Part shown: piece by piece, positions 24,824 through 58,234 of the stretch
How the letters are laid out: each line of letters begins with the position of its first letter
Position numbering within the stretch: the stretch's first letter is position 1
Source of the DNA: a virus
Reading direction: 5' to 3' (one strand)
Length of the DNA: 64,000 bases
Virus record (IMG/VR): IMGVR_UViG_3300048672_001051
Span: 124,001 to 188,000 of that record
Program-made: the position numbers and the translations under genes
The notes under the pieces: generated by a model
What the model was told of the DNA's origin: nothing
Database searches by the model: none
The model's input: only the letters and a program-made list of their open reading frames with translations

Positions 24824-24900
24824 TGGAGCTTGTGCAGAGACTTTAACTCTGTATCACTGGATTTGCAATCCAGTCCCTCGAACACTTCGGGTTAACAAGC
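24824..24900 (-). tRNA. tRNA-Cys (GCA)
   Basis: Acceptor GCTTGTT/CACAAGC (last pair mismatched), anticodon stem CTGGA/TCCAG with loop TTGCAAA (GCA), T-stem CAGAG/CTCTG with loop TTAAAGT, discriminator T, encoded CCA. Confidence 0.85.
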
Positions 24901-26697: not shown

Positions 26698-26724
26698 TTG
26701 AACATCGCCTTTTAAAAGGGAAAT

Positions 26725-26748
26725 GCTGACTTTCAATTGAAAGTCAGC
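26725..26748 (-). terminator. 24-base palindrome, terminator-like
   Basis: GCTGACTTTC-AATT-GAAAGTCAGC, 12 bases after the stop of the TerD gene and 27 bases before the Ro60-like ATG. Probably ends the TerD message. Confidence 0.55.
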
Positions 26749-43450: not shown

Positions 43451-44043
43451 AGCGTAAATCTCTGTAAATGATACATTGGAAGTTTTTCGCAATTATCTAG
43501 AAAGCTTAACTCTAATTTAGATTCATGAATAACTCTAAAAACACTGAAATCATGTGAATTTTGAACAGCAAGTTTATCAATAATTTCAAGATCATTTGTA
43601 AAATACATTTTAGAATTAATTACAGGAGTACCTTTAAGAATCTCTAAAATAGCATTTTTTGAAAAAATTGTCTGATCATTTGAATTAGGGACTGAGTTTT
43701 CTGTAACATAGTAAGTTATGTTACCAATAACTACTACATGACAATTATTCTGGCAAACAATATATTCACCATTATCTATCAGATACTCAAATAAGTTAAA
43801 ACAAGGTCTTGAACCTGTTTCAAATACTTCTTTAGTTTTACTAGCCATTATGTCTAGATCTTTGACAGTTAAGCCTAATTTAAATGCTTCTGATTTTATA
43901 CATAAAAATAAATCAGACAACTCTGTAGCTGCCATTATTTTATTTTTATGACTAAGCGCATCAATATATTCTAAAAATTCTTCATAAATTTTAAAAGGTG
44001 ATGTGTGCGGAACTTTTGGAATTTCAAGTGTATGATAAGACAT
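43447..44043 (-). CDS. hypothetical protein
   Basis: 198 residues, mixed, not a member of the paralogue family next to it: it lacks the FW-x3-R and HG marks and ends LQRFTL. The first gene downstream of the array, 38 bases away, and overlapping the synthetase-like gene start. Confidence 0.6.
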   Translation of the reverse strand: MSYHTLEIPKVPHTSPFKIYEEFLEYIDALSHKNKIMAATELSDLFLCIKSEAFKLGLTVKDLDIMASKTKEVFETGSRPCFNLFEYLIDNGEYIVCQNNCHVVVIGNITYYVTENSVPNSNDQTIFSKNAILEILKGTPVINSKMYFTNDLEIIDKLAVQNSHDFSVFRVIHESKLELSFLDNCEKLPMYHLQRFTL

Positions 44044-44081: not shown

Positions 44082-44546
44082 TTATAAATATCTAAGATTG
44101 TGTATAGGTACAACTTCACCTGCAATGTAAAAAATTGAAGAGTATCTTTGTCCAGAATTTACATTTGAAATTCGTGCAGTAGATCCGTGTAATAAGCCAT
44201 TTTTAAAAAATCCTTCAGGTACAGTTGAATTATAAGCTCTGCGGCTATTTTTAAAATTACCGAACATACGTCTATTTGAAAGGTAAAAAGAATCTTTAAA
44301 TGTTGCAACAGTTGATTCATAATCAGTAACACACTTACAAGATTTTGGGATATTAGGATACGTATTATAAAAAACAACTTGATTATAAAAATATTTTAAA
44401 ATATTTTCAAATTGAAGTAGTCTGTTAGTTTTTAATAAAAATTTTAAAATTTTTATTTTTTCAATTAAAGGATACCTTGAAGTCATCCTGTGAGAATTAT
44501 TTAAAATAAATGTGTAATATTCTTCAGCTTCACTTCTTTTTAACAT
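44082..44546 (-). CDS. array paralogue (last, 35th)
   Basis: 154 residues. The N-terminal half is diverged, with no FW signature. C-terminal HGSTARI, then FYIAGEVV and the end NLRYL. The 3'-most member; 38 bases follow before the non-member gene. A longer hydrophilic insert separates the halves. Confidence 0.75.
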   Translation of the reverse strand: MLKRSEAEEYYTFILNNSHRMTSRYPLIEKIKILKFLLKTNRLLQFENILKYFYNQVVFYNTYPNIPKSCKCVTDYESTVATFKDSFYLSNRRMFGNFKNSRRAYNSTVPEGFFKNGLLHGSTARISNVNSGQRYSSIFYIAGEVVPIHNLRYL

Positions 44547-44547
44547 A

Positions 44548-44934
44548 TTATAAATCTCTTAGTTGTAAATATTTTGGTAATTCTTCATCATTAATGATAA
44601 AAGAAACTAAACTAGTAGCCATATCTTTAAAAGCTCCGTGAAGTTCATAGCTCTCTAAAAAATACATTTTATTTTGATAAGCATGTTGAAAGCCACTAAC
44701 TTGTAAACCAATTTTATTTAATTTAGAAGTTAAATAGTATGAGTTATATCTACTCTTACAAAAACCTGACGGAATTTTAAGAGAACCTTTTCGACAATAA
44801 ATATCATGAAGTATCGCTCTAAAATACGCATTAAAATCTTTAGGGTTTTCCATTGTAATTAGATGTTCGTACTGGCTTTTATTAAACTCTTTAAGGTTTA
44901 ATAAAAAATCTATATATTCTTTTGTATATATCAT
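44548..44934 (-). CDS. array paralogue
   Basis: 128 residues. DFNAYFRAIL replaces the FW signature. LHGAF and the end LQLRDL are clear. The LRDL codons (AAGAGA) precede the next ATG by 8 bases. Confidence 0.75.
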   Translation of the reverse strand: MIYTKEYIDFLLNLKEFNKSQYEHLITMENPKDFNAYFRAILHDIYCRKGSLKIPSGFCKSRYNSYYLTSKLNKIGLQVSGFQHAYQNKMYFLESYELHGAFKDMATSLVSFIINDEELPKYLQLRDL

Positions 44935-44951
44935 ACTTTAAACCTGTAACT

Positions 44952-45305
44952 TTATAAATGTGCTAAATTTGTTATATTTAAAACTAGTCGTTTATTTATA
45001 TAAAAAGAATATTTTTTAGTATATTTTTCAAAGTAGCAGCCGTGTTGATTCCCACAAGTTAAAAAAGAATTTACATATAAACTTTTAGAAATTCCGAAAA
45101 TATAATTTTCGGAATGTTGATAAAATTCAACATTTCTCCATTTAGCAAAACCTGCTTTTTTAAAATGTTTTCTTAAATCTTTAAATAAATTAAGCCTGTA
45201 GAAACTATAACGCATTAAAATATCAAAATCTACACAAGAACCTACTTTAGCAGTTTTTATCAGGTCAGTATACAAATCAGTTAAGTATCTTTCGTTCATA
45301 CTCAT
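44952..45305 (-). CDS. array paralogue, C-terminus LAHL
   Basis: 117 residues, the shortest full member. QHGCYF present. The end is NLAHL: Arg is lost, and here a separate ACAGG ribosome site lies in the 17-base spacer before the next gene. Confidence 0.75.
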   Translation of the reverse strand: MSMNERYLTDLYTDLIKTAKVGSCVDFDILMRYSFYRLNLFKDLRKHFKKAGFAKWRNVEFYQHSENYIFGISKSLYVNSFLTCGNQHGCYFEKYTKKYSFYINKRLVLNITNLAHL

Positions 45306-45306
45306 A

Positions 45307-45708
45307 TTAAAGCTCTCTTAAATTTGAAATTTTTAATCTTTGATTATTTATTGCAAAATGTGTTTTTTGATATTCTGATGCAACTGCGCCCAAGAATCTG
45401 TTAGCCACAACAAAGCCAGTTCTCCTTGTAGTGCTAGTACAAAGACCTATTGCGTCACATTTAGTGGTTAAAAAACCTGACAGGCCAGAATCACTTTTAA
45501 ATTTACCAGCTAAAGGTTGTTTATAATCCCAAGCAATTGTTCGATTACCAGTTGTTTTGTTAAGATAAACTATAGACCGAGCATACTCCCAAAACATTTT
45601 TTTACTTTTAATTCCTAAAAAATATTTATTATTAAAGTACTTTTTATCCCAATTTTTTGTAACAAATTTACTAGCTTCTGGGTCGTGTTGCCAATCAAAT
45701 GTTTGCAT
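45307..45708 (-). CDS. array paralogue without HG
   Basis: 133 residues. MFWEYARSIVY present. HG is replaced by LG (FLGAV). Ends NLREL, whose codons AAGAGAG serve the next ATG. Confidence 0.75.
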   Translation of the reverse strand: MQTFDWQHDPEASKFVTKNWDKKYFNNKYFLGIKSKKMFWEYARSIVYLNKTTGNRTIAWDYKQPLAGKFKSDSGLSGFLTTKCDAIGLCTSTTRRTGFVVANRFLGAVASEYQKTHFAINNQRLKISNLREL

Positions 45709-46106
45709 TATAAGTATCTCAAGTTAGTAATTGGTTTTTTGTATCCAGCTATGTAGTGCGTCAGCTGAGCGTTATAAACCTCTGCACCATGTTGTGCTGA
45801 ACTATTTAGATGGTACTTAATTCTATCACCACGAACTGATTTGACTAAACCAATTGTTTTTGCCTTAGCTGTAATAATATAGCTAATATCTGAGTTAGGT
45901 GAATACGCAATTCCACCTATATTATAAAAAATATCTAACAGATCATATCTTAGCATGTCTCTAACAAGAGAATAAAATTCTTTAGAATTTTTATTTCTAG
46001 TTGTATTTTTAAAAATTCCTATTAGTTGTGGAGTTACTTTTGAACAAGCACTAAAGCCATCTAAAATTTCTTGCGGTGTTGAATTATTAAAATCAATTTT
46101 TTTCAT
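45708..46106 (-). CDS. array paralogue
   Basis: 132 residues. QHGAEV, ends NLRYL; stop and next ATG overlap (TAATG). The middle (FYNIGGIAYSP, IGLVKS) closely resembles the member at 49068-49466, eight genes away, indicating a dispersed duplicate. Confidence 0.8.
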   Translation of the reverse strand: MKKIDFNNSTPQEILDGFSACSKVTPQLIGIFKNTTRNKNSKEFYSLVRDMLRYDLLDIFYNIGGIAYSPNSDISYIITAKAKTIGLVKSVRGDRIKYHLNSSAQHGAEVYNAQLTHYIAGYKKPITNLRYL

Positions 46107-46483
46107 AAATGTCTCAAATGTGTAGCTGCTACACGTTCACCATCAATATAAAGTTTTAAAGAATTTGCGACAGCACCATGACGGATGTCGTTAGCATAAA
46201 ATATTCTTAAATCGCCTTCCTCGAAAATCCCAAGCATGCCACTATTTTTTAAATAATAATTACAACCGTAAGTACTTCGTATAAAGCCATTTTTTAATTT
46301 AGCTAGTAACCTATGATTAAATAGAGAAGGGTATACTTGAATCGTATTTCTCAAGAATCCCCAAAAATATTTAGGATTTTTTTCGTATGAATATTTTATC
46401 AAATATTTATAATAAAGATTGGAAGTTCCTAAATGTTTTTTTATAAGTTTAATAGCATCAAAAACATCTTTAATTTCATGCAT
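46103..46483 (-). CDS. array paralogue
   Basis: 126 residues. YFWGFLRNT, YYLKNSGMLGIF, RHGAV, LYIDG, ends HLRHL. Overlaps the next ORF by ATGA. Confidence 0.8.
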   Translation of the reverse strand: MHEIKDVFDAIKLIKKHLGTSNLYYKYLIKYSYEKNPKYFWGFLRNTIQVYPSLFNHRLLAKLKNGFIRSTYGCNYYLKNSGMLGIFEEGDLRIFYANDIRHGAVANSLKLYIDGERVAATHLRHL

Positions 46484-46484
46484 A

Positions 46485-46922
46485 TTACAAATACCTTAAA
46501 TGTGTACAGGATACAACTTGATCAGCAATATTAAAATAAGTTTCTACGTAAGAGTGATATGTGTCTGTCGCGTCGTCATAATCTTCTCCGCTGTAAATAG
46601 TAGCTCCATGCTCCCCAACTGAAGACTTAAACCACTGCGAATCTGAAGTGGTAATTAAGCCTCTGGTGCTATTGTGGTAAGAACTGTAGTAGTGTGTTGG
46701 TGGAGAATGTGTAGACTTGAGTGGATCATAACTCTCAGCCGGTCCAGAACTTACTGTTATAGTTTCGTTTTTAAATGTTCTTCTAATTTTTAAATATCTA
46801 ACATACCGCCAAAATGATTTTAGATCTTTTTCTAATAATAATTTTTCAAGCATTATTACTTCATGCTGATAATTTTTAATTGAGCTAAGCTCTTTAAGTA
46901 TTTCAAGAGGTGTACTATACAT
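46485..46922 (-). CDS. array paralogue with His/Ser/Tyr-rich insert
   Basis: 145 residues. SFWRYVRYLK, EHGATI, ends HLRYL. Two polar inserts rich in His, Ser, Tyr and Asp (centre and near the end) make it the most unusual full-length member in composition. Confidence 0.8.
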   Translation of the reverse strand: MYSTPLEILKELSSIKNYQHEVIMLEKLLLEKDLKSFWRYVRYLKIRRTFKNETITVSSGPAESYDPLKSTHSPPTHYYSSYHNSTRGLITTSDSQWFKSSVGEHGATIYSGEDYDDATDTYHSYVETYFNIADQVVSCTHLRYL

Positions 46923-46942
46923 TATAAATCTCTAAATTTTAA

Positions 46943-47353
46943 TTACAAGTATCTTAAAGATGCCGTATCAATAGGTCTGTTGTTAATCCAAAAGCGTTTT
47001 GTTCTGTTAGGTTCATATAAACTCCCATGCACAGAACAACGTTCTTTGCAGAAATATTTCCTTTTTGTAGGTGATAAGTGAAAACCAATCAGTTCAAGAT
47101 TTTTTTTACGATAATAGATTTCACTATTAAAGTCTAAGCTGTTGACATATTTACCAGCACCTAACTCTTTTTTAAATTTTTTTAAAAATTTAGAATTCTG
47201 GGAGTTATAATTTTCTAAAAAATGCCTAATTCTTGGAATAATATTTTTTAAATCTGTAGAATTTTCAATTTTAATATTATTAAAATAATTAAAAAAAACA
47301 GTTTGTTCAGAAATTTTTTTAACAAATTTTCTAAATTTTTTTTCGGTTAACAT
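46943..47353 (-). CDS. array paralogue
   Basis: 136 residues, Lys/Asn-rich. RIRHFLENY in place of FW, VHGSLYE, FWINNRP, ends SLRYL. In the 20-base spacer after it the sequence TTTAGAGATTTATAATG repeats the look of another gene end plus start, a possible remnant of a deleted member. Confidence 0.75.
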   Translation of the reverse strand: MLTEKKFRKFVKKISEQTVFFNYFNNIKIENSTDLKNIIPRIRHFLENYNSQNSKFLKKFKKELGAGKYVNSLDFNSEIYYRKKNLELIGFHLSPTKRKYFCKERCSVHGSLYEPNRTKRFWINNRPIDTASLRYL

Positions 47354-47370
47354 TATAAAGTCCTTAGTAG

Positions 47371-47760
47371 CTACAAACTTCTTAAAGAAGTTATTAATGT
47401 TTGGTGCCCATTTAGATATAAAGATATATCATTAAAATGTTTAGAAGCGCCGTGTTGTTTAGTATCTAGTAAAAAATACATATATTGCTTATTTTGAAAT
47501 ACTAATTTATGTCTACGATTTGGTGGACCTATAGTGTAAATAGCATAAGTAATTTTATTAACTTTTAAATATACGCTACAAACATAACCAAAACTGCTGT
47601 TAAAATTTGGTAATTTAATATACTTTCTTGATGCTAAAAATCTAACATAAGCCCAAAAGTCTTTAAGATTACCATTACTACTTAAAGACAGCATATAATT
47701 TGTTCTACTTCCAAGAGTATATTTATCAATTTCATTTAGTACAGTTTGAATTTTATTCAT
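47371..47760 (-). CDS. array paralogue
   Basis: 129 residues from ATG 47760, chosen because it follows the preceding stop by one base; an upstream ATG would overlap it. DFWAYVRFLA, QHGASK, LYLNG, ends SLRSL. Spacer contains AAGGA for the next gene. Confidence 0.78.
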   Translation of the reverse strand: MNKIQTVLNEIDKYTLGSRTNYMLSLSSNGNLKDFWAYVRFLASRKYIKLPNFNSSFGYVCSVYLKVNKITYAIYTIGPPNRRHKLVFQNKQYMYFLLDTKQHGASKHFNDISLYLNGHQTLITSLRSL

Positions 47761-47761
47761 A

Positions 47762-48187
47762 TTACAATTCACTTAATTTTAAATTTGAAATATGTTTATC
47801 ATTAACATAAATTAGATAAGAAGTAGTACCAATCTGCGCCATACCGTGAGACTCATCCTGTTTTTTATAAGTTTTTTGATTTGACATACTAAGTAAACCA
47901 AAAGTATTGTCAGAACTATTAACATAACCTACAACTTTTAAGCTGTGCGGTGCTATAAGGTGTCCAGCAATTTTTAATTCTAAATCTTCTAGATTAAAAA
48001 AAGTGTAACGTTTATAAAATCGCAGAGTACCAAAAAATTTCATTAAATTTTTATAATTATTTAATGAAATTTTTTTCAAAGATATCAAAGCATTTGTTGC
48101 AAAGTATGAACTAACTACAGAATTTTGCTCTGCAATAGCCTCTATTTCACCTAATATTTGTAAACATGAATCTTTAGTTTCTAGCAT
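47762..48187 (-). CDS. array paralogue, C-terminus LSEL
   Basis: 141 residues. KFFGTLRFYK, SHGMAQ, LIYVND, ends KLSEL, one of the few ends without Arg. AAGTGA is the remaining weak ribosome site. Confidence 0.75.
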   Translation of the reverse strand: MLETKDSCLQILGEIEAIAEQNSVVSSYFATNALISLKKISLNNYKNLMKFFGTLRFYKRYTFFNLEDLELKIAGHLIAPHSLKVVGYVNSSDNTFGLLSMSNQKTYKKQDESHGMAQIGTTSYLIYVNDKHISNLKLSEL

Positions 48188-48202
48188 AATTTGTAATAAT
48201 CC

Positions 48203-48583
48203 TTAAAGATTTCTTAATGTTCTATATGCAGGTACCCTACAGCCTTCAAAATAGAAGGTTGTTATATTACCTGTCTTAGAGCAGCCGTGTATAACATTTT
48301 TAGAATAAAAATTAACTCTAATAAAAGATACTGAAAAACCTACACAACTATTATTACTTGTTAGGTAGTAACTTACTGTATTATCTGTTGAAATTATAGC
48401 ACCATAGCTTTTAGAGCACAGGTACATCTCAAATAAGCCTCTAGATATTTTTTTTAAATAGCGCACTTTAGCCCAAAAATACTTATATTCACCAGCATCT
48501 AAATGTTTTTTTAAAGTTTGGATACTCTTATCTTCGTATATATCTAAATCTATTATATATTTCAAAACATCTTGTGGGGTCAT
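48203..48583 (-). CDS. array paralogue
   Basis: 126 residues. YFWAKVRYLKK, IHGCSK, FYFEG, ends TLRNL. TAAGGA spans its stop codon and can serve the next start. Confidence 0.78.
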   Translation of the reverse strand: MTPQDVLKYIIDLDIYEDKSIQTLKKHLDAGEYKYFWAKVRYLKKISRGLFEMYLCSKSYGAIISTDNTVSYYLTSNNSCVGFSVSFIRVNFYSKNVIHGCSKTGNITTFYFEGCRVPAYRTLRNL

Positions 48584-49065
48584 AAGTCTCTCAATCTTAA
48601 GTTTTTTGGGGCGTAGCAGTCTGGTTTAAATAAAAATTTAAATTTTATAGACTGGGCTTCGTATACAGTACCGTGTGACCCAGTAAATTTTGTTTGAAAA
48701 TGTTTAGAATATGTATGCACTACTAACCCTACGTTGTTTAAATTTTTACCATTTGCGTAATAACTACAGTTTTCTTTATAATAATATCCAGACATATTTA
48801 AATTAAGTCTAAAATAGGTTGGAAGTTGATAATTTATATATCTTGCATACCCCCAAAATTTTTTAAAATCTTTGTCCATAAAAAATTTTAAAAGTTTATC
48901 GTATTTTGCGCTTGATACCGTGTCTAGTGCATAAAAATATTGCAAAACTTTTAAAGGATTAACAATAACTGTGTAGTTAAAGCTTTTATAAAAAAGCATT
49001 AAAGTTTTTGTAGAATTATCATATATCTTAATATTTAAAATATAGTTTATAAGCTTATTAAACAT
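48580..49065 (-). CDS. array paralogue, longest
   Basis: 161 residues, with about 30 extra N-terminal residues. KFWGYARYI, SHGTVYE, ends LRLRDL; stop overlaps the next ATG (ATGA). Confidence 0.78.
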   Translation of the reverse strand: MFNKLINYILNIKIYDNSTKTLMLFYKSFNYTVIVNPLKVLQYFYALDTVSSAKYDKLLKFFMDKDFKKFWGYARYINYQLPTYFRLNLNMSGYYYKENCSYYANGKNLNNVGLVVHTYSKHFQTKFTGSHGTVYEAQSIKFKFLFKPDCYAPKNLRLRDL

Positions 49066-49067
49066 AG

Positions 49068-49466
49068 TTATAAGTACCTTAAATTTGAAATATGTATAAG
49101 GTCACCGTCTAGATAATAAGCTACCTCAGAGGAGTTGTGCTGATATGTGCCGTGCCTTGAAGAGTTTTTTAAAAAATAATTAAAATAATATTTATTGCTT
49201 TTAACTAAGCCAATTAAATCTCTAGCTGTATTTATAGTGTATAGTGCGTTTTCACCCGGAGTGTTTGCACTCCCCGCTACATTATAAAAGTTAGTTAATT
49301 CATAAAAATGTACTATATATCTTAAATATTTTAAAGCTTCGTTAAACATTAAATTTTTAATATAGTCTTCAGCAGTTTTTATATGACTAAAGTGTATCTG
49401 AGGTATTTGTTTTAAAATTTTTAAAATCTGCTGAGGTTTTAAATTATTAAAATCTGTTGTAATCAT
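49068..49466 (-). CDS. array paralogue
   Basis: 132 residues. EALKYLRYI, FYNVAGSANTPG, RHGTYQ, YYLDG, ends NLRYL. A sister of the member at 45708-46106. Confidence 0.8.
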   Translation of the reverse strand: MITTDFNNLKPQQILKILKQIPQIHFSHIKTAEDYIKNLMFNEALKYLRYIVHFYELTNFYNVAGSANTPGENALYTINTARDLIGLVKSNKYYFNYFLKNSSRHGTYQHNSSEVAYYLDGDLIHISNLRYL

Positions 49467-49834
49467 AAATTCCTTAAACCTGTATACGGTATTTTTTTAC
49501 CCATCAGATATAACCTTGTATTCTTGCGATCAACATCATCTTTAAAACTTCCATGTTGCATATTATTACTTGTAAAATATTTTAAATATTTATATTCTAA
49601 ATAGCCGACTTTATAAAAATCCTTAGAAGTGCCTATAAAAAAAGTATGCCAATTATTAATATCTCTAGTTTGACCGGTTTTAAATTTGCCTAGGTTTAGA
49701 TGAGGAATTAAATAATATCTAGCGCGCTCCCAAAATAATTTAATATCATTTGTAAGGTAAATTTTATTCAGTGCATTAAAAATTGAAGCATATTTTAAAT
49801 ATTCTAAAACTTTTTCTGGTGTGTCGTAAATCAT
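49463..49834 (-). CDS. array paralogue
   Basis: 123 residues. LFWERARYY, QHGSFK, LYLMG, ends GLRNL; TTAAGG plus ATGA overlap couples it to the next gene. Confidence 0.78.
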   Translation of the reverse strand: MIYDTPEKVLEYLKYASIFNALNKIYLTNDIKLFWERARYYLIPHLNLGKFKTGQTRDINNWHTFFIGTSKDFYKVGYLEYKYLKYFTSNNMQHGSFKDDVDRKNTRLYLMGKKIPYTGLRNL

Positions 49835-49846
49835 TTTATAAGCCTA

Positions 49847-50278
49847 TTAAAGATTTCTTAAAGTAGTTTTTAAACTTAACTTTTGTCCATAAATATAGTG
49901 AAAAGCTGAAGTAATTTTATAATATTCAAAAATGTTGATATCAAAAAATTGTCCATGAGGCAAACTTGCAGTGTAGTAACCTTTTTTTGTAGCCCTTTTA
50001 TAAAGTCCAAATCTTTCTGAGTTATTTTTAATATAATAGTTTGGTGCGTCATTATAGTCGAACGCTACATAACCTTTAGCAGTATGTGAATTTAAAAATT
50101 TTGCATCTAAGCGCCAACGCATAGTGTTAATATATCTAATATTATTCCAAAAATTATTTAAATCATCGTTAATAATATTTGTAACTAATTTTTCATAAGT
50201 TTTATTATTAAGATTATTTTTTATATATTTTAAAATATCAAATATTTCTCGAGCTTCTTCAACACTTACTTTACCCAT
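49847..50278 (-). CDS. array paralogue
   Basis: 143 residues. NFWNNIRYIN, YYIKNNSERFGL, PHGQFF, HYIYGQ, ends TLRNL. Its N-terminus (EAREIFDILKYIKNNL) is close to that of the member at 50682. Confidence 0.78.
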   Translation of the reverse strand: MGKVSVEEAREIFDILKYIKNNLNNKTYEKLVTNIINDDLNNFWNNIRYINTMRWRLDAKFLNSHTAKGYVAFDYNDAPNYYIKNNSERFGLYKRATKKGYYTASLPHGQFFDINIFEYYKITSAFHYIYGQKLSLKTTLRNL

Positions 50279-50279
50279 A

Positions 50280-50669
50280 TTATAATTCCTTTAAAGCTAC
50301 ATTTAAAATATTATTGTTAACCAACAACTCGTAACGTCGCCTATTTAGTTTTGTTGTTGCAGGTAAAACTCTACCATTCATAAAAGTTTTATGACTGCGG
50401 TTGGCTATTACGAGGCCAACTTTTAAGTTATTACTTTTTATGTAAAAAGTGCTTAACATACTATGAGTTATAACAAAAGCTTTACCGATGTTGTAAATAC
50501 CTAAATCAATTTTTAATTTATAATAGGATTTTATTCCACGCGCAAACATCCAAAATAACTTATCGTTTTTAGATAACAATTCACGTCTTAGCTTATAAAA
50601 TTCTAAATAAACTTGAGAATGATTTCTTAAAAGTTCATCCATAAATTCTTCAGGTGTGTCAAAAACCAT
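50280..50669 (-). CDS. array paralogue without HG, C-terminus LKEL
   Basis: 129 residues. LFWMFARGIK, FYIKSNNLKVGL; HG replaced by NG (MNGRVLP). Ends ALKEL: Lys replaces Arg, yet the codons still give AAAGGA before the next ATG. Confidence 0.75.
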   Translation of the reverse strand: MVFDTPEEFMDELLRNHSQVYLEFYKLRRELLSKNDKLFWMFARGIKSYYKLKIDLGIYNIGKAFVITHSMLSTFYIKSNNLKVGLVIANRSHKTFMNGRVLPATTKLNRRRYELLVNNNILNVALKEL

Positions 50670-50681
50670 TGCATAATGCTC

Positions 50682-51068
50682 CTATATATATCTTAAATTA
50701 TTTACATTCAAATTTGAACCATTAATAAAATATACACCTGAAACTTTACTAAATCCGTTTAGCATGTTTTTATTATAAAAAGAACTCGAAGAATCACGGT
50801 TGTGTAGTCCAAATTTTACAAAATTTTTTTTAAAATAGTAAAAATTTCTAAAAGAGTTGCTTGCAAAACGTCCGGTAGATATTTTAGAATTTTTACTGAC
50901 AGGTTCTAAATCTAAAATACAGTTATTAGTATATCGGATAATTTCCCAAAACTTTTTATAATCACCTTCGTTAATACTATTTAATAATCTTACACAGAAA
51001 GAGTCTTTAGCGCCTAAATTATTTTCAATATATTTAACTATATTAAATATTTCTACAACTTCAGTCAT
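50682..51068 (-). CDS. array paralogue with NG for HG
   Basis: 128 residues. KFWEIIRYTN, FYYFKKNFVKFGL, LNGFSK, YFING, ends NLRYI. TAGGAG overlaps its stop. Confidence 0.78.
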   Translation of the reverse strand: MTEVVEIFNIVKYIENNLGAKDSFCVRLLNSINEGDYKKFWEIIRYTNNCILDLEPVSKNSKISTGRFASNSFRNFYYFKKNFVKFGLHNRDSSSSFYNKNMLNGFSKVSGVYFINGSNLNVNNLRYI

Positions 51069-51070
51069 AA

Positions 51071-51445
51071 CTACAAATCTCTTAATTTTAAAAATTTTGG
51101 TAAAGGTTTATTATCAATAATAAACCTACCCCTAGTATTTTGTCCGTGATAGCAGTCATTTTTAAAATATTGTACTTTACGGTCATTATAATGTTTTCCA
51201 AATCTCTGTCGACGACTGTTTACATAAAATTTATCGTTAAATAAACTGTATTTTGCAAAACCAGCTTTACGTTTATCGGATAAAATTTTTAACTCTTGAG
51301 TAAATTCAATATGTCTACAAATTTTCCAAAAATCTTCTAAAGATTTTTGGAAAATAACTTCAAGAATTTTTTTAAGACCGGGAGATTTATTACCCAAGCT
51401 TTTTTGAAATTCTTTATATGTTTGAAATATTTCTTCATGATCCAT
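51071..51445 (-). CDS. array paralogue
   Basis: 124 residues. DFWKICRHIE, FYVNSRRQRFGK, YHGQNT, FIIDN, ends KLRDL. Confidence 0.8.
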   Translation of the reverse strand: MDHEEIFQTYKEFQKSLGNKSPGLKKILEVIFQKSLEDFWKICRHIEFTQELKILSDKRKAGFAKYSLFNDKFYVNSRRQRFGKHYNDRKVQYFKNDCYHGQNTRGRFIIDNKPLPKFLKLRDL

Positions 51446-51446
51446 T

Positions 51447-51872
51447 TTATATATACCTTAAGTTTTTTACAGATAGAGGTCGGCCATTAATAATAATTCC
51501 AGTTTCACTGCTAGTACCATGATACTGACTATTATTAAAAAAATTTAATTCGCCATTCCAGTTATCAAAACCTAAAATACAATGGTCTTTAACATAATTA
51601 GTTACAGTTAAAGTTTTACCAGAAATAGCTTTACCAGTAGGATATTTATTAAATATCCTACTTAGGTTTAGCTCTTCATTTAAATTTAAATTTAAATAAA
51701 TATGTCTAACTACACACCAAAACAAATTTATATTTGGAGGTTCAGCCAAAAGGCTTAGTCTTAATACTTCAACACTAACTTGTGTATCATAAGCTAAAGA
51801 ATCGTAACAGTTATCTTCAGCTATAAGATTATTAATATAGTTTAAAAATTCTTCACATTCTAATATGTCCAT
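51447..51872 (-). CDS. array paralogue, NKYP subfamily
   Basis: 141 residues. LFWCVVRHIY, NKYPTG, YHGTSS, IIING, ends NLRYI. The NKYPxG form recurs at 53792 and 55003, pointing to block duplication. Confidence 0.8.
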   Translation of the reverse strand: MDILECEEFLNYINNLIAEDNCYDSLAYDTQVSVEVLRLSLLAEPPNINLFWCVVRHIYLNLNLNEELNLSRIFNKYPTGKAISGKTLTVTNYVKDHCILGFDNWNGELNFFNNSQYHGTSSETGIIINGRPLSVKNLRYI

Positions 51873-52252
51873 TATAAATACCTTAAGTTAGTAACATTGC
51901 ACGCGACAGCATTTACATAAAATCTTCTTGTGTGTTGACAATAACCGTGAACTTTACCTAAAAATCTAGCGCGGTACAAATAGCCTGATACTCCTGGGAG
52001 CCGAATAACGCCAAAAACTATAGAATTACTATTTACGTAAATTTTAAGGTCTTCAGCATGTCGGTTACAGACTCCAGCTTCATATTCATATAGTGTAAAA
52101 GTAAAATTACATAAATATTTAAAGTATCTTGCAACTTCCCAAAATCTTTTGAAAGACTTTTTAATTAAAAGATTTTCCAAATATTCATAATCACGGTGGC
52201 TTAAGTGTATAAATCTTTCTAAAACTTCAGTTGCTTTTTGAAACTCACTCAT
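51872..52252 (-). CDS. array paralogue, EYxAG subfamily
   Basis: 126 residues from ATG 52252, which follows the preceding stop; an upstream in-frame Met would overlap. RFWEVARYFK, LYEYEAG, IYVNSNSIVFG, VHGYCQ, FYVNA, ends NLRYL with TAATG overlap. Confidence 0.8.
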   Translation of the reverse strand: MSEFQKATEVLERFIHLSHRDYEYLENLLIKKSFKRFWEVARYFKYLCNFTFTLYEYEAGVCNRHAEDLKIYVNSNSIVFGVIRLPGVSGYLYRARFLGKVHGYCQHTRRFYVNAVACNVTNLRYL

Positions 52253-52254
52253 TC

Positions 52255-52638
52255 TTATAAATACCTTAAATTTGAACATTGAATATAAATATTTTTTATA
52301 TAAAATTCAGGGTTAGTCAGACTGCCTGAGCAGCCATGTAAAGTATCATTCACGTGAAATTGCTTTTTTTCGCAGTAGTTGTGTCGCCCAATTCTTTTAA
52401 AATTACTGTTAAAATAACAAAATTTTTTGTCTGTTAAATCTAGACTATATCCACTATTATATTTTCCAAAAGATACGTCGTACCTAAAACCGTGCTTAAT
52501 ATAACGAGCTACACTCCAAAATTTTTTTAAGTCTCCAGTTATTAAAATATTATTTAAAGTTTTTAATATACGTGTTGGGTACTTAAGTGTAGCCATATGG
52601 TCTATTATTACGTTTGGATCTTCAATAACTTGTAACAT
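52255..52638 (-). CDS. array paralogue
   Basis: 127 residues. KFWSVARYIK, FGKYNSG, YFNSNFKRIGR, LHGCSG, FYIKN, ends NLRYL; AAGG in LR codons sits 9 bases before the next ATG. Confidence 0.82.
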   Translation of the reverse strand: MLQVIEDPNVIIDHMATLKYPTRILKTLNNILITGDLKKFWSVARYIKHGFRYDVSFGKYNSGYSLDLTDKKFCYFNSNFKRIGRHNYCEKKQFHVNDTLHGCSGSLTNPEFYIKNIYIQCSNLRYL

Positions 52639-52639
52639 T

Positions 52640-53002
52640 TTAAAGCTCTCTTAATTTTAAATCGTAAATTGGCTTACCGTTAATTTTGAAACCTAAATAA
52701 CCTGTGCCATGCAATTTATCTTTATTTACAAACAAATGTCCAATTAAACATTTGTTTAGACCTACTCGCTCACTTTTTGAATTTACGTAAAAAGTTATTT
52801 GACTACTCATATTTTGTGAAAAACCAGAAGTGTGTGAATTTAACTTTAAGTGTGGACACAGACCTTTTAAAAACCTTGCATATATCCAAAAAAATTTAGT
52901 ATCACAACTTTTAACAATAGCTTTTAAATTTTTAAAAATAGTGTCATTAGACTCAAACTTAATTTCGTTTAAAAAAGTTAATATTTCTAATTCTTGATTC
53001 AT
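52640..53002 (-). CDS. array paralogue
   Basis: 120 residues. FFWIYARFLK, FYVNSKSERVGL, LHGTGY, FKING, ends KLREL. A compact member that shows all family marks well. Confidence 0.82.
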   Translation of the reverse strand: MNQELEILTFLNEIKFESNDTIFKNLKAIVKSCDTKFFWIYARFLKGLCPHLKLNSHTSGFSQNMSSQITFYVNSKSERVGLNKCLIGHLFVNKDKLHGTGYLGFKINGKPIYDLKLREL

Positions 53003-53004
53003 GC

Positions 53005-53388
53005 TTATAAATGCCTTAAACTTGTTATAGGTCGACTATTACTTTTTATATAAAATTTTTTTGTAAAATTAGAATAGCCGTGTGCATAACCGTCAAGTCT
53101 AAATGTTTCACAAGATTTTCTCTCTAAAAGAAAAGTTTTACCAAATTTTCTGCCAGTACTATTTAAATAGTAAGCCCAATTATTATCTGATCTTTTGGCA
53201 AGACCAGACTCATATTCATATAATCCAATAGGAAGTCTTGATTCATATTTAATATATCTAGCTATTTCCCAAAATATTTTAAAGCATTTCTGCTTTAAAA
53301 TATAATTAAGATTAATGCAAATAATTTTGTAGCGCGCAAAATTTTCAAAATATTCTAAAACTCTGGTTGCTTTTTCAGATTCATTCAT
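53005..53388 (-). CDS. array paralogue, EYxSG subfamily
   Basis: 127 residues. IFWEIARYIK, LYEYESG, YYLNSTGRKFGK, AHGYSN, FYIKS, ends SLRHL. Closest to the members at 51872 and 53390. Confidence 0.82.
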   Translation of the reverse strand: MNESEKATRVLEYFENFARYKIICINLNYILKQKCFKIFWEIARYIKYESRLPIGLYEYESGLAKRSDNNWAYYLNSTGRKFGKTFLLERKSCETFRLDGYAHGYSNFTKKFYIKSNSRPITSLRHL

Positions 53389-53389
53389 A

Positions 53390-53788
53390 TTACAAGTACC
53401 TTAAGCTATTAACATGGTTAATAAAATTATTTAAAAAATATTTTTGCATAGTAAAATTATAACCGTGAAGTTTGTTTTGAATAGTGAAATAACGTTGAGG
53501 ATCTTTTCTATTGTCAACAACTTTACCTACTCGTCTGCTAATAGAATTAACATACGCATAGTAGGTATTTGAGCTGTTTATAGCTTTTCCAGCGCTATAT
53601 TCTGCTAAGTCTAAAGTTATTAAAGATTGATATTTTAATTTCAAATATCTTACATACTCCCAATAACGTTTAAAAATTCCTGTCTTTAAACCAAAATTAT
53701 ATTGCTCAGTTAAAAACTGCAAATTAAATTTCTCTTTAGAATTTTTAATTTGCATAAAAATATTTGCACCAAATGTCAAAACATTCAT
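53390..53788 (-). CDS. array paralogue, EYxAG subfamily
   Basis: 132 residues. RYWEYVRYLK, AEYSAG, AYVNSISRRVGK, LHGYNF, YFLNN, ends SLRYL. Confidence 0.82.
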   Translation of the reverse strand: MNVLTFGANIFMQIKNSKEKFNLQFLTEQYNFGLKTGIFKRYWEYVRYLKLKYQSLITLDLAEYSAGKAINSSNTYYAYVNSISRRVGKVVDNRKDPQRYFTIQNKLHGYNFTMQKYFLNNFINHVNSLRYL

Positions 53789-53791
53789 CAG

Positions 53792-54226
53792 TTAAAGCTC
53801 TCTTAATTTTAAATTAAAAACATCTTCGTCATTAACACTAAATCCGAGACTATGAGTACCATGGCAGGTACTGTCTGTACAGTAGTACTTATGATCATCT
53901 GACGAGATATGCAAACCTATTGTAAAATTATCAGATTTTATATAACTAGTTGTTATAAGTTTTATCGGATCTATAATAGCACCTACTGGGTACTTATTAT
54001 AAAATTTATCTAAGTCTGCGTACCAACTAAATATATCATATGCATATCTGACTACGCCCCAAAAAAAGACTGAATTTAGAGGTTTTTGAGTTGCAATAAA
54101 ATCTAGCCTATTTACAATATCTATAAGTGTTGGTGAACACTCACCTTCAATACTTATTTTCACTATCTCTAAAACTTCTTTGAAGTATTTAACAACCTCT
54201 AAACACTCTTTTAATTTCAAATCCAT
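53792..54226 (-). CDS. array paralogue, NKYP subfamily
   Basis: 144 residues. FFWGVVRYAY, NKYPVG, SYIKSDNFTIGL, CHGTHS, ends KLREL. Confidence 0.82.
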   Translation of the reverse strand: MDLKLKECLEVVKYFKEVLEIVKISIEGECSPTLIDIVNRLDFIATQKPLNSVFFWGVVRYAYDIFSWYADLDKFYNKYPVGAIIDPIKLITTSYIKSDNFTIGLHISSDDHKYYCTDSTCHGTHSLGFSVNDEDVFNLKLREL

Positions 54227-54227
54227 A

Positions 54228-54620
54228 CTATAAATGCCTTAAATGCAGGTCAATCATGTCGCCATTAATAATAAAATAACTTTTATCGAGAGTATTACTT
54301 TGTCCATGGCTTGTACCTTTAAAACGAAAGCTGTGAGTTTTAATCCAGCCGGCTGCTACACAATTACCTAGTCTTATACCTGAAGTTGTACAGTAAAATT
54401 TTCCAAAAAATTTATTTGGTACTTGGCTAAAACCTTCAGAATATTTTTTTAAATCTACATTTTTCGTATGACAATTTTTTAAATAACGAGCTGCTTGCCA
54501 AAATACTTTAGCACTTCTTTCAATATTAATGACATTTAATAAAATTTTATAAGCTTCCTCATTTTCTTTTTTAAAGTCTGTTAAAACTTTAAAAATTTCT
54601 AACGCTTGAACTTCATTCAT
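54228..54620 (-). CDS. array paralogue
   Basis: 130 residues. VFWQAARYLK, KKYSEG, FYCTTSGIRLGN, SHGQSN, FIING, ends HLRHL. Confidence 0.82.
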   Translation of the reverse strand: MNEVQALEIFKVLTDFKKENEEAYKILLNVINIERSAKVFWQAARYLKNCHTKNVDLKKYSEGFSQVPNKFFGKFYCTTSGIRLGNCVAAGWIKTHSFRFKGTSHGQSNTLDKSYFIINGDMIDLHLRHL

Positions 54621-54622
54621 AT

Positions 54623-55003
54623 TTACAGATACCTGAGAGATTTGATACGATTAGGAATACCGTTTAAATAATATTTTTTATCTATTTGGTCATAGCCGTG
54701 AAGCTCACCTTTAATATAAAAATATTCACGATTATCAAAAATAGCGCGACCAAATCTTTCGAGAGAGCTTGATAAATATCCTGGACGTCTAGACTCTGAA
54801 TTAAATATAGGTCCAGCAGTGTATTCTTTTAAATCTATTTCATGTCCAGCACACGCTTTAAAAAATCTCAGTATCATCCAGTATTTTTTAAAATTGGCAG
54901 TTTTTAATGCCAATTTAAATTCGTCTTTTAGTTCACTGCCTAGCTTATGACGCGTGTCCGGAATAAGTTGAAAAATATGCTGTGCAAATAGTTCTTCTCT
55001 CAT
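54623..55003 (-). CDS. array paralogue, EYxAG subfamily
   Basis: 126 residues. KYWMILRFFK, KEYTAG, GYLSSSLERFGR, LHGYDQ, YYLNG, ends SLRYL (CTC AGG codons). Confidence 0.82.
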   Translation of the reverse strand: MREELFAQHIFQLIPDTRHKLGSELKDEFKLALKTANFKKYWMILRFFKACAGHEIDLKEYTAGPIFNSESRRPGYLSSSLERFGRAIFDNREYFYIKGELHGYDQIDKKYYLNGIPNRIKSLRYL

Positions 55004-55455
55004 TATAACTCTCTTAGTCTTAAAGTATTTTTTAGTGCGCGATCATTTATATTGAAACTAATACTATTATTAATACTGCAAGTCCCATGCTTCATATCTT
55101 TAAGTCTATAACTTGTACTCTCCAAGTAATAATCCAAACCTATTAGTTTAAAATCTGTTGTAAGATAACTTACAATTTTTAAATCTGTCGGTGATCTAGC
55201 CAAACCTGCAGGATATTTATTTAAAGTTTTGTCGAAATAATAAAAATAATTTGCCAAATTTAAATAGACATAACGGGTTATCTGCCAAAAACAAATAATA
55301 CTTGGACTAGGAGATTTAAAAATGTAGTCTAAAATTTTACAAGCAAGCGATAATTCATCAATATATTTTATACGAACATTTTTAAGCATTTCAGGCGTTT
55401 CTAAATATTCTTTAAAATATCTTAAGATTTTTTCAGAGTCTTCTAGTTGTGTCAT
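55003..55455 (-). CDS. array paralogue, NKYP subfamily
   Basis: 150 residues. CFWQITRYVY, NKYPAG, SYLTTDFKLIGL, KHGTCS, FNIND, ends RLREL with TAATG overlap to the next ORF. Confidence 0.82.
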   Translation of the reverse strand: MTQLEDSEKILRYFKEYLETPEMLKNVRIKYIDELSLACKILDYIFKSPSPSIICFWQITRYVYLNLANYFYYFDKTLNKYPAGLARSPTDLKIVSYLTTDFKLIGLDYYLESTSYRLKDMKHGTCSINNSISFNINDRALKNTLRLREL

Positions 55456-55457
55456 AA

Positions 55458-55835
55458 TTACAAATCTCTCAGTTTTAAATTAGAATTTAAAACACAATTA
55501 TTTATTTTTAAAATAAATATTTTTGAAGCCTTATTAACATACACGCCGTGCATTCCACCGTTATTTTGAAAAAATTTTAAATTAATATTGTCATATTCGC
55601 CGAAAGACCTGAGATAACTATTAAAATAATATTTTCGATTAGTGCCAGGCGATACATACAAACCAGCTCTTGTTAGAAAATTTGGCCGTACTGGACGGCC
55701 AACATCATATTGTAATTCTCTTAAAACACCTAGGAATTTAGTTGTCTCACCGTCAGCTAACATTTTTAAACATAAAATATATGCATACGTATTTTTCGGA
55801 ATATTTTGTAATAAATCTAAAAATAATATTTTCAT
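55458..55835 (-). CDS. array paralogue
   Basis: 125 residues. KFLGVLRELQ in place of FW, YYFNSYLRSFGE, MHGVYV, ends KLRDL. Confidence 0.78.
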   Translation of the reverse strand: MKILFLDLLQNIPKNTYAYILCLKMLADGETTKFLGVLRELQYDVGRPVRPNFLTRAGLYVSPGTNRKYYFNSYLRSFGEYDNINLKFFQNNGGMHGVYVNKASKIFILKINNCVLNSNLKLRDL

Positions 55836-56233
55836 TATAAATGCCTTAATTCTCTAGTTTTTACATCACGGCTGTTAATAATAAAAATAAAGCCTCTCTC
55901 AATGTCAAAAACCCCATGTTTTCGACTTTGTTTGTAATGCCTTCTAGCTACACTATTAAATTTAGCCATACCAATTACTTTGTCTTGTTTGTTTACATAA
56001 TAATGATAATTACCTAATATTGATGTAGCTAAGCCTGAACGCATGTGGCCTATATCTACACCCGAAGGCTTTATAGCTTTATGGTAATTATAATGTCTAA
56101 TAATCTCCCAAAATTTTTTAAAATTGTTAGTAGCAATTAAACTTTCTAATTTTCTAGTAGTTTTTTTGTCAATACTTGGTTGATTATACTCTTGTATAAT
56201 TTTTAAAATTTCATAAGGATTTGTAGTAATCAT
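55835..56233 (-). CDS. array paralogue
   Basis: 132 residues from ATG 56233 (AAAGGTG at 9 bases in the longer spacer; a GTG three codons upstream is the alternative). KFWEIIRHYN, YYVNKQDKVIGM, KHGVFD, FIINS, ends ELRHL. Confidence 0.8.
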   Translation of the reverse strand: MITTNPYEILKIIQEYNQPSIDKKTTRKLESLIATNNFKKFWEIIRHYNYHKAIKPSGVDIGHMRSGLATSILGNYHYYVNKQDKVIGMAKFNSVARRHYKQSRKHGVFDIERGFIFIINSRDVKTRELRHL

Positions 56234-56254
56234 TTGCCACACCTTTGTTAATAT

Positions 56255-56641
56255 TTATAAATACCTTAGATTTTTTTTGTAAAAAAAATCATTATTAATA
56301 TACATGGTAGTAATATTATTCAGGAAAGCCATGCCGTGAAAATAATTATTTTTAAAAAATAAACATTCTTTATTAATACCAGTCTTGTGTAAACCTATTC
56401 TTAAGCCTAAGGAGTTAATATAAAAACTTTCATTGCCTGAGTTTAGGCTAACAAAACCGCTTGCCTTACTTCCTAGCGGTATTTTTAAATCATAATTTTG
56501 ATTAACATACCGACATACTTCCCAAAATTTTTTAGTATTATTTTGATAAATCAATTGTGATAGTATTGCAGGGTAATCTTTTAAAGTAATATACTTTTTT
56601 GTATATTTTTCAACTTCTTTTATAATTTCTAAGGGTTGCAT
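56255..56641 (-). CDS. array paralogue
   Basis: 128 residues from ATG 56641, just after the preceding stop. KFWEVCRYVN, FYINSLGLRIGL, FHGMAF, MYINN, ends NLRYL. A 21-base spacer with its own AAAGG follows. Confidence 0.8.
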   Translation of the reverse strand: MQPLEIIKEVEKYTKKYITLKDYPAILSQLIYQNNTKKFWEVCRYVNQNYDLKIPLGSKASGFVSLNSGNESFYINSLGLRIGLHKTGINKECLFFKNNYFHGMAFLNNITTMYINNDFFYKKNLRYL

Positions 56642-56643
56642 TT

Positions 56644-57039
56644 CTAGAGATTCCTTAAAGACTTTGTTGGGCATTCAGAATTATTAATATAATTTTGAAA
56701 ATAAGAATTCACAGTACGAACTCCGTGTAATTTTCTATTTTTAAAAAATAATTTTGCTTTATGATGGATTGATAAACCCACCACCTTACCTTTACTATTT
56801 AAATAGTAACTACTAGATAAGTTATGCATACAAGCTAAGCCCACTAAACGTGGGCCTGTAATATATTTTAAATCAAATTCATTTTTTAAATATCTGTACA
56901 GTTCCCAAAATTCTTTAACATTTTTAGTAGTACTTAAAAGATTGTAAACATAATGATTACAGTCAGCAGGATCTTTTAAAATTAATTTTAAAAGATCATA
57001 TATTTCAATAATTTCGTGTTGTTCAATTGTCTTAGTCAC
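56644..57039 (-). CDS. array paralogue, GTG start
   Basis: 131 residues, probably from GTG 57039. EFWELYRYLK, YYLNSKGKVVGL, LHGVRT, NYINN, ends SLRNL. Confidence 0.8.
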   Translation of the reverse strand: MTKTIEQHEIIEIYDLLKLILKDPADCNHYVYNLLSTTKNVKEFWELYRYLKNEFDLKYITGPRLVGLACMHNLSSSYYLNSKGKVVGLSIHHKAKLFFKNRKLHGVRTVNSYFQNYINNSECPTKSLRNL

Positions 57040-57408
57040 TTATAAATACCTTAAGCTCCGCCATGTCAGTAAATTGCCTTTAAGCCAGAATTTATGAAAT
57101 CTATCATCGCAACCATGCCTATAGCCTTGACAATAAAAAACTCTATCTCGAGAGTTTCTTGCAAATCCAAATTCTCTAGCTTCTCTATTAATATAACTTA
57201 AAAAATTAGAATTAGAGTTATAAATTTTACCAGCAGTATACTCACCTAAAATTAAATTAAACTTTTCTGTTTTTTTAATTCTACGAGCTACACTCCAAAA
57301 TTCTTTAAAATTTTGGTTAAGAAGACATTCTTGCAAAAGTCTAGTGTCAATATGGTAACTAAATCTTAAGTGGTCTAAAACATTTTTAGCTGATTCTAAT
57401 TCAGTCAT
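57040..57408 (-). CDS. array paralogue, EYxAG subfamily
   Basis: 122 residues. EFWSVARRIK, GEYTAG, SYINREAREFGF, RHGCDD, FWLKG, ends SLRYL. Confidence 0.82.
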   Translation of the reverse strand: MTELESAKNVLDHLRFSYHIDTRLLQECLLNQNFKEFWSVARRIKKTEKFNLILGEYTAGKIYNSNSNFLSYINREAREFGFARNSRDRVFYCQGYRHGCDDRFHKFWLKGNLLTWRSLRYL

Positions 57409-57409
57409 A

Positions 57410-57886
57410 TCATAAATACCTTAGCCTAGTCACATTACTTCGTATTCCATCAATATAAAAATCAGGTGCATTGAATCTTTTATATGCGCCATGTCTAATA
57501 TTATTTTTAAAATAACATGATTCATTATCAGACCTTTGACACAGACCTATCATGCCACTATTTTTTAATTTATAATAAAAATTATTATAACGCATAAACT
57601 TACCATTAAAATAATGTTGTAAGTTTATTTCAGGGCAATAAGAAGTACTAATATATTTTATTTTAGGCCAAAAATTTTTGGTATTATTGTCTGATAGAGC
57701 ATTTTTAAAAAGTCGCAAAATATCTACAGACTTTAAAGATCTTTGATAAACAGTTCTAACTATATCTTCACGAGTGTGACACTTTTTTAAAATTTCTTTT
57801 GTATTACAAGGATTGTAAAAAAAAGGAAAAGGACTTGGTGACAATATGGTTGAATAAGCCATAGACGTAATATCTGTAGGGTACAT
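57410..57886 (-). CDS. array paralogue with N-terminal extension
   Basis: 158 residues. About 30 extra N-terminal residues rich in Ser/Pro/Thr, then NFWPKIKYIS, YYKLKNSGMIGL, RHGAYK, FYIDG, ends RLRYL. ACGGA upstream of ATG 57886. Confidence 0.8.
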   Translation of the reverse strand: MYPTDITSMAYSTILSPSPFPFFYNPCNTKEILKKCHTREDIVRTVYQRSLKSVDILRLFKNALSDNNTKNFWPKIKYISTSYCPEINLQHYFNGKFMRYNNFYYKLKNSGMIGLCQRSDNESCYFKNNIRHGAYKRFNAPDFYIDGIRSNVTRLRYL

Positions 57887-57898
57887 AAAATATCCGTT

Positions 57899-58117
57899 TT
57901 AAAGTTGTAATAGTGTAATATTTTTTGAAAGTTTTTTACCAGCTATATATAATGTAATATTCTCTTGATCCTGTAGCGAAGAACCATGTCTTCCAGCTAT
58001 AGAGTTAAAGAAACTTTCAAAAGAGTCCATATATAACCCAACAATTCTTGCCAAACTATCTCTAAAATAATTGCCGTATTCGCCAGTATAGTAACCTGCA
58101 ACTTCAGATTTTTCCAT
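57899..58117 (-). CDS. array paralogue, C-terminal half only (first gene)
   Basis: 72 residues starting just before the AGYYTG strand: only the second half of the family (YFRDSLARIVGL, RHGSSL, LYIAG) is present. This shows that the C-termin­al part can stand alone. It ends TLLQL without Arg, and the ribosome site of the next gene lies in the spacer. A 5'-truncated relic is the alternative. Confidence 0.7.
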   Translation of the reverse strand: MEKSEVAGYYTGEYGNYFRDSLARIVGLYMDSFESFFNSIAGRHGSSLQDQENITLYIAGKKLSKNITLLQL

Positions 58118-58234
58118 AAAAATGACTCGTTATTGTAAACAAAAAAGGGGTTTTAAGCTAAGATGCTAAAGCTTTGCACCCCTTAAAATAAGTATACTTA
58201 AATAATATTGCTTAAAAAAATGACTCGTTATTGT
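58118..58234 (-). promoter_or_regulatory. 19-base direct repeats flanking a terminator at the array head
   Basis: The sequence AAAAATGACTCGTTATTGT occurs at 58118-58136 and 58216-58234. The first copy ends at the array's first ATG, and the second is upstream of the hairpin 58145-58184. On the minus strand both read ACAATAACGAGTC, with a possible -10-like ACAAT. Candidate operator or promoter pair controlling entry into the array. Confidence 0.5.
58145..58184 (-). terminator. rho-independent terminator or attenuator
   Basis: Minus strand AAGGGG...CCCCTT with an inner AAGCT/AGCTT stem, followed by TTTTTTG. It lies between the 93-residue gene and the array, so readthrough must be controlled or the array has its own promoter. 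Confidence 0.75.

Follow-up and report, generated by a model that had tools for sequence, protein, structure and literature searches.

A tandem array of 35 paralogous genes, at 44082-58117 on the minus strand of a 64,000-nucleotide window (bases 124001-188000 of the 229,656-bp IMG/VR virus record IMGVR_UViG_3300048672_001051), represents a new protein family and a further case of a known, unexplained kind of jumbo-phage gene expansion. Computation established the family, its fold plan, a three-gene periodicity, the coupling of the genes, and their absence from relatives; from these we infer that the array may be maintained as a repertoire of proteins that bind host factors. Since 2017, two jumbo phages have been known to carry arrays of at least 30 tandem genes, with no function assigned. 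The third such array described here consists of an unrelated protein; its fold is predicted with confidence, its unit of duplication can be measured, and one apparent "protein" motif has an explanation at the RNA level. A related phage fills the same neighborhood with another family, which turns a curiosity into a recurrent, testable pattern.

Family linkage and predicted fold

A sequence-only reading of the window had proposed 35 consecutive minus-strand genes of a single family. The coordinates and count proved exact: the run comprises 35 consecutive open reading frames (ORFs) of 72-161 residues, with a G+C content of 27-29% versus 33-37% in the surroundings. A hidden Markov model (HMM), built in each case from the 34 other proteins, linked every member (18.7-85.7 bits, E 6e-26 to 3e-5), and shuffling each protein 100 times never gave a score (best 3.7-15.6 bits) as high as the real one. 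Searched with the profile as a whole, and again as ORFs, the record yielded the same 35 places and no further copy in 229,656 bp. These mutual scores bear out the claim of one family. Pairwise BLAST at E 1e-3 joined just 117 of the 595 member pairs, and the family is therefore deeply diverged and visible as a whole by profile only; the closest pairs share 37% protein identity and other pairs less.

The members are numbered from the low coordinate (m01), with transcription running from m35 to m01. All are placed by the leave-one-out HMM, and further evidence is given in brackets.

44082-58117, minus: tandem array of 35 paralogous genes
57899-58117, minus: m35, first gene, 72 residues, sheet half only (E 3e-5)
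57410-57886, minus: m34
57040-57408, minus: m33, EYxAG type
56644-57039, minus: m32, adjoins m31 and is its close kin (BLAST)
56255-56674, minus: m31, start probably 56641 (start correction)
55835-56242, minus: m30
55458-55835, minus: m29
55003-55455, minus: m28, NKYPxG type, third in block m26-m28 (lag test)
54623-55003, minus: m27, EYxAG type, second in block m26-m28 (lag test)
54228-54620, minus: m26, first in block m26-m28 (lag test)
53792-54226, minus: m25, NKYPxG type, pairs with m28 at lag 3 (lag test)
53390-53788, minus: m24, EYxAG type, pairs with m27 at lag 3, best supported sister pair (lag test, tree)
53005-53388, minus: m23, EYxAG type, pairs with m20 and m26 at lag 3 (lag test, tree)
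52640-53002, minus: m22
52255-52638, minus: m21, most typical member (AlphaFold model)
51872-52279, minus: m20, EYxAG type, start probably 52252 (start correction)
51447-51872, minus: m19, NKYPxG type
51071-51445, minus: m18
50682-51068, minus: m17, NG for HG
50280-50669, minus: m16, C-terminus LKEL, AAAGGA retained (junction reading)
49847-50278, minus: m15
49463-49834, minus: m14
49068-49466, minus: m13, reciprocal best match of m05 (BLAST, second AlphaFold model)
48580-49065, minus: m12
48203-48583, minus: m11
47762-48187, minus: m10
47371-47772, minus: m09, start probably 47760 (start correction)
47354-47370, minus: gap m09-m08, with ..LRTL-stop inside (read from sequence)
46943-47353, minus: m08
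46923-46942, minus: gap m08-m07, with LKFRDL-stop inside (read from sequence)
46485-46922, minus: m07
46103-46483, minus: m06
45708-46106, minus: m05, reciprocal best match of m13 (BLAST)
45307-45708, minus: m04, LG for HG
44952-45305, minus: m03, C-terminus LAHL, then 17-nt gap (junction reading)
44548-44934, minus: m02
44082-44546, minus: m01, last gene

It is barely credible that the array is an artefact of assembly error or chance ORFs, and this explanation can in practice be regarded as already refuted. The array is present in one uncultivated-virus record only and is AT-rich, but copies at 37% identity or less are too divergent for an assembly repeat, the leave-one-out scores beat every shuffle, and the codon structure, coupling, and Shine-Dalgarno (SD) signals are all coherent.

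The members were also said to share one architecture, which is correct as a common plan but not for m35, which lacks the helical half. Among the 34 full-length members the proposed motif residues are frequent rather than universal: the W of FW occurs in 26, the R in 32, and the H of HG in 31, with HG replaced by NG in m17 and by LG in m04. R45 and H101 are the two nearly invariant polar residues of the family. Cysteines number 0-5 per member and none is conserved.

AlphaFold was run on the 35-row alignment with m21 as lead, and on rows m01-m16 alone with m13 as lead. The first model (predicted local distance difference test, pLDDT, 94.4; predicted TM-score, pTM, 0.85) has helices at residues 8-17, 22-34, and 37-51, followed by seven strands. 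The second, of only middling confidence (pLDDT 71.7), has the same order, with three helices and six strands. The predicted common plan of the family is thus three helices followed by a sheet of six or seven strands, and the folds agree as the single-family claim had implied.

In a Foldseek comparison with predicted viral proteins, the m21 model matched giant-virus MORN-repeat proteins over ~65-90 residues (TM-score by query ~0.37, E 0.01-0.1, probability mostly 0.9-1.0 and up to 1.00); the MORN likeness of the poorer m13 model was weak. A PDB fold search with the m21 model returned nothing below E 0.1, and its top matches, CROP/choline-binding repeats, were rejected (root-mean-square deviation near 10 A, E above 0.1). 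At E up to 10, none of the 35 members matched a Pfam MORN-type profile, and searches of all 35 against Pfam, PHROGs, NCBIfam, and PADLOC at E up to 1-10 gave single-member chance matches only. The predicted sheet is therefore better termed MORN-like than a MORN protein, its apparent likeness being one of fold and not of sequence. The sequence-only reading had called the resemblance superficial, which is apt for the sequence but probably understates the fold. As in MORN and YwqK-like (MORN_2) proteins, the predicted C-terminal sheet consists of beta-hairpins rich in aromatic residues, which turn at N-G and H-G. Expanded MORN families occur in giant viruses such as Orpheovirus, and like them the array places many copies within one giant virus; unlike them, its proteins add a three-helix head, reside in a bacterial virus, and match no MORN profile. 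Because giant-virus MORN proteins can carry an F-box, an F-box-like head was considered, and was dropped when no Pfam F-box match was found.

Duplication and translational coupling

Similarity between members, corrected for each member's mean, was tested at lags of 1-14 genes. At lag 3 the residual similarity was 16.1 with a permutation standard deviation of 3.7 (5000 gene-order permutations, p<0.0002), and no other lag in this range fell below p=0.05, so the three-gene spacing that had been noticed by eye is statistically real. Moreover, m23, m24, and m25 match m26, m27, and m28 in order, and m20 matches m23. The similarity peak at this spacing implies that three-gene blocks were duplicated, in agreement with the earlier proposal of block duplication. 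Single-gene duplications seem to have occurred as well (m31/m32; m05 and m13). The latter two, eight genes apart and previously called sisters, are reciprocal best BLAST matches (E 8e-15), but their sisterhood was not resolved by a maximum-likelihood tree. In this tree the end branches are long, with a median of 1.4 changes per site, and good support is confined to four forks, which implies an old history and places the ratio of nonsynonymous to synonymous substitution rates (dN/dS) out of reach. At such divergence, the strong diversifying selection and the inhibitors or decoys proposed in the sequence-only reading are conjectural.

The genes are closely packed. Three starts probably lie later than in the longest ORF (56641, 52252, and 47760), and after these corrections the stop-to-start gap is at most 3 nt at 26 of the 34 junctions, with several overlaps (ATGA, TAATG); all copies thus look as if they lie within a single operon. 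The C-terminal L-R-x-L, initially read as a protein motif, coincides with the SD sequence of the next gene, in the form TTA-AGG-TAT-TTA-TAA-t-ATG and variants of it. The terminal Arg codon is AGA or AGG in all 31 array genes that have one, compared to 129 of 206 genes elsewhere (p 2e-6), and the median anti-SD pairing is -4.0 kcal/mol at array starts versus -0.9 kcal/mol at 216 other ATGs (p 4e-9). In m16, Lys-Glu occupies the motif position and AAAGGA is still present; m03 and m35 lack the terminal Arg, and the gaps after them measure 17 and 12 nt; m10 has Ser in the motif and a weak AAGTGA only. L-R-x-L is thus, at least in part, the ribosome-binding site for the next gene at most junctions. 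The invariant Leu residues, and the fact that the last gene still carries L-R, point to a role for the motif in the protein as well. The longer gaps between m09 and m08 and between m08 and m07, whose stops lie directly ahead of the next ATG, are possible relics of the 3' ends of lost genes, retained as ribosome-binding sites.

Relatives and comparable expansions

The structural block of the record is collinear with that of Acinetobacter phage vB_AbaM_ME3 (234,900 bp), with proteins roughly 25-50% identical, which identifies the virus as a jumbo phage and a distant relative of ME3. Further relatives were found through the portal protein. The family is missing from ME3, where a lone match (E 0.006, interrupted by 14 stops) is due to chance, from G001 (183.7 kb) and G002 (242.6 kb), both relatives from IMG/VR, and from eight further records; the family HMM also found nothing in phages G and 121Q. 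Searching 50,697 phages by tblastn with three members, together with a peptide-pattern scan, gave no homologue. Degenerate DNA patterns, which reach fairly close relatives only, were scanned against IMG/VR (none for the first pattern, 23 stretches for the second) and, with one pattern, against GTDB genomes (17 stretches); none of these stretches scored better than E 0.066 with the family HMM, and hence all are chance matches. The family thus appears restricted to one lineage, with metagenomes outside the search.

Relative G001 carries a different expansion. At 154969-166014 (loci L075 and L079) it encodes ~21 tandem or near-tandem small proteins, a count that is soft since it derives from four seeds iterated at E 0.01 among 105 ORFs. 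They lie on the same strand as, and 8-19 kb downstream of, the gene for the same 1207-residue protein that is the upstream neighbor of the present array. This family resembles the array in its kind of locus, its tandem arrangement, and its divergence; it differs in being an unrelated protein (~85 residues, with LLLILxSYG near the N-terminus), of mostly near-neutral isoelectric point (pI) and with a lag-1 signal. In G002 the corresponding place is taken by fewer short genes, which look similar. The neighborhood therefore seems to breed private tandem families.

The sequence-only reading knew of no described system like the array, which does not stand: phages G and 121Q were reported to contain runs of over 30 similar genes in tandem (Hua et al. 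2017, PMC5646251), and ~35 zinc ribbons, their role uncertain, were later described in phage G (Iyer et al. 2021, PMC7824862). On re-analysis we recovered 27 tandem zinc-ribbon paralogues at 353.9-371.0 kb of phage G, with short interruptions and a median identity of matches of 31%. Both arrays are private families of jumbo phages, have about 30 highly diverged tandem copies, and show many intergenic gaps under 5 nt. In contrast, the zinc ribbons are unrelated proteins of ~200 residues and mixed pI, their duplication signal is between neighboring genes (lag 1, z 6.9) instead of at three-gene spacing, and the conserved paired cysteine zinc ligands typical of them are absent from the array members. 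Phage 121Q is likewise a jumbo phage with tandem duplication, but only sets of 6-12 were recovered from it at E 1e-5, none of them of the array family. With a genome above 200 kb, at least 30 members, and a single lineage, the array has the features of a jumbo-phage tandem expansion.

Tandem multiplication of a genome segment is also the basis of the "genomic accordion" of T-even phages (PMC13096335; PMC9391042), as when T6 escapes Septu defense by amplifying a tRNA/segB segment (PMC13096335). Those copies are near-identical, reversible, and serve dosage, whereas the array copies are old and strongly diverged. For the first step in building such an array, the T6 amplification is a precedent from the literature.

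Possible functions and genomic surroundings

The explanation we favor, although we rate it somewhat below an even chance, is that the array is a diversified repertoire of host-directed binders. An ancestral gene for a small basic protein, with a three-helix head and a MORN-like beta-hairpin sheet, would have multiplied in place, by a single gene or a three-gene block per event, probably through unequal recombination, and the copies would have diverged to 37% identity or less with the fold kept. As the last Leu-Arg codons of a gene would supply the ribosome-binding site of the next at most junctions, in-register gain or loss of a copy would leave the translation signals working. Selection would then hold the core fold constant and let the remainder vary, each copy binding a different host factor, either a defense component or a take-over target. 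That 34 full-length ORFs are intact at very high divergence argues for selection on each copy as opposed to simple gene dosage, and supports a maintained, diversified family. In addition, the absence of the family from ME3, G001, and G002, together with the unrelated G001 family in the same neighborhood, suggests that the locus is of the conflict type and undergoes turnover. Conflict genes typically show such exchange of unrelated private families at a single locus, and it is for this reason that a binder repertoire is favored. Several points weigh against it: by profile, no member is like known inhibitors or anti-defense proteins (PADLOC covers defense, not anti-defense); synonymous sites are saturated even in the best pairs, leaving no recourse to dN/dS; and the strong positive charge fits nucleic-acid binding as well or better.

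This charge keeps close the alternative that the members are basic RNA- or DNA-binding proteins, acting either as specific regulators or to pack the nucleic acid of phage or host, which we nevertheless judge rather unlikely. The pI exceeds 9 in 82% of members versus 31% of other ORFs of 90-170 residues, the median net charge is +6.4 per 100 residues versus 0 (p 4e-9), aromatic content is 15% versus 10%, and R45 and H101 are polar and nearly invariant; the same role was proposed for the phage G zinc-ribbon expansion (PMC7824862). However, an AT-rich array by itself favors Lys codons, four members (m07, m19, m25, and m35) are acidic or have a pI below neutral, and profile searches gave no known nucleic-acid-binding domain. 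MORN sheets, moreover, are known mainly as protein- or lipid-binding.

Near-neutral expansion, in which a recombination-prone gene fills a roomy capsid with harmless coupled copies whose fold is kept only against toxic misfolding, is a less probable account. It draws on the capsid-headroom model of jumbo phages, with tandem duplication as a filling route (PMC5646251), and would accommodate the deep divergence, the truncated member, the possible relics of lost copies, and the lack of a homologue in the phage, IMG/VR, and GTDB scans. Neutral copies should decay or vanish, though, and here 34 full-length frames are open with the same core residues, at FW, HG, and G positions that composition bias alone does not preserve. 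Finally, the constant fold, single operon, and fixed gene order could reflect subunits of an ordered hetero-oligomer, either a virion part or an intracellular filament, joined edge to edge through the free sheet edges that a MORN-like fold would be expected to have. This we consider quite improbable: the virion genes occupy the opposite strand, in a block of their own that is collinear with ME3 and excludes the array, related phages that share this virion plan are without the family, and a three-gene period is unlike a conserved subunit order.

A broader reading, possible but doubtful, is that ME3-like jumbo phages carry a diversification locus beside the gene for the 1207-residue protein, each lineage building up there, by duplication, its own tandem family of small proteins as a modular operon. 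If true, such a locus would give the phage a standing, evolvable set of binders, with copies added or removed without breaking translation, since each ribosome-binding site would lie in the final codons of the preceding gene.

The region upstream of the array contains the following features.

58118-58134, minus: 17-nt repeat AATAACGAGTCATTTTT, immediately before the first ATG (repeat search)
58145-58184, minus: hairpin then T run, between both repeat copies (folding, sequence reading)
58216-58232, minus: second exact copy of AATAACGAGTCATTTTT (repeat search)
58811-62434, minus: upstream neighbor, 1207-residue protein with DxDGD motif (conserved in ME3-like phages)

No third exact copy of the repeat occurs in the whole record. 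The hairpin stretch (-17.6 kcal/mol, z -2.4) is terminator-like or attenuator-like, and the space between it and the first ATG is too short to hold a sigma-70 promoter of the ordinary kind; the array may therefore be controlled by attenuation or have an unusual promoter. The 1207-residue protein has no Pfam or PDB profile match. Its DxDGD motif reads DcDGD, DvDGD, DiDGD, and DsDGD in four phages, including ME3, G001, and G002, and on this motif the protein may be put forward as a candidate single-chain (YonO-like) RNA polymerase. In ME3 and G002 the gene is broken into separate ORFs.

Several genes below the array are related to transfer RNA (tRNA) or cofactor metabolism. Two genes below it, the protein encoded at 42860-43492 (minus) matches a PHROG that bears the name histidyl tRNA synthetase (E 1e-36), and 39270-40481 (minus) encodes a phage tyrosyl-tRNA synthetase (Pfam E 3e-82). 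Genes for a nucleotidyltransferase (nicotinamide mononucleotide, NMN, adenylyltransferase-like; 20181-20717), NAMPT (32621-34096), and a phosphoribosyl pyrophosphate (PRPP) synthetase-like protein (34106-34933), all on the minus strand, are possibly a nicotinamide adenine dinucleotide (NAD+) salvage set, as phages use against NAD-depleting defenses. A TROVE/Ro60-like protein with a vWA domain is encoded at 25273-26736 (minus; Pfam E 5e-13), and near it is a tRNA-like Rfam match (24827-24900, minus), not called by ARAGORN, that is possibly its Y-RNA-like partner. Further along, 7161-23961 holds 15 tRNA genes by ARAGORN and 16 Rfam matches, with homing-endonuclease-like ORFs among them (10392-10904, 11971-12567, 13241-13999, and 18527-19285), and 21292-23829 encodes a helicase with an apparent intein.

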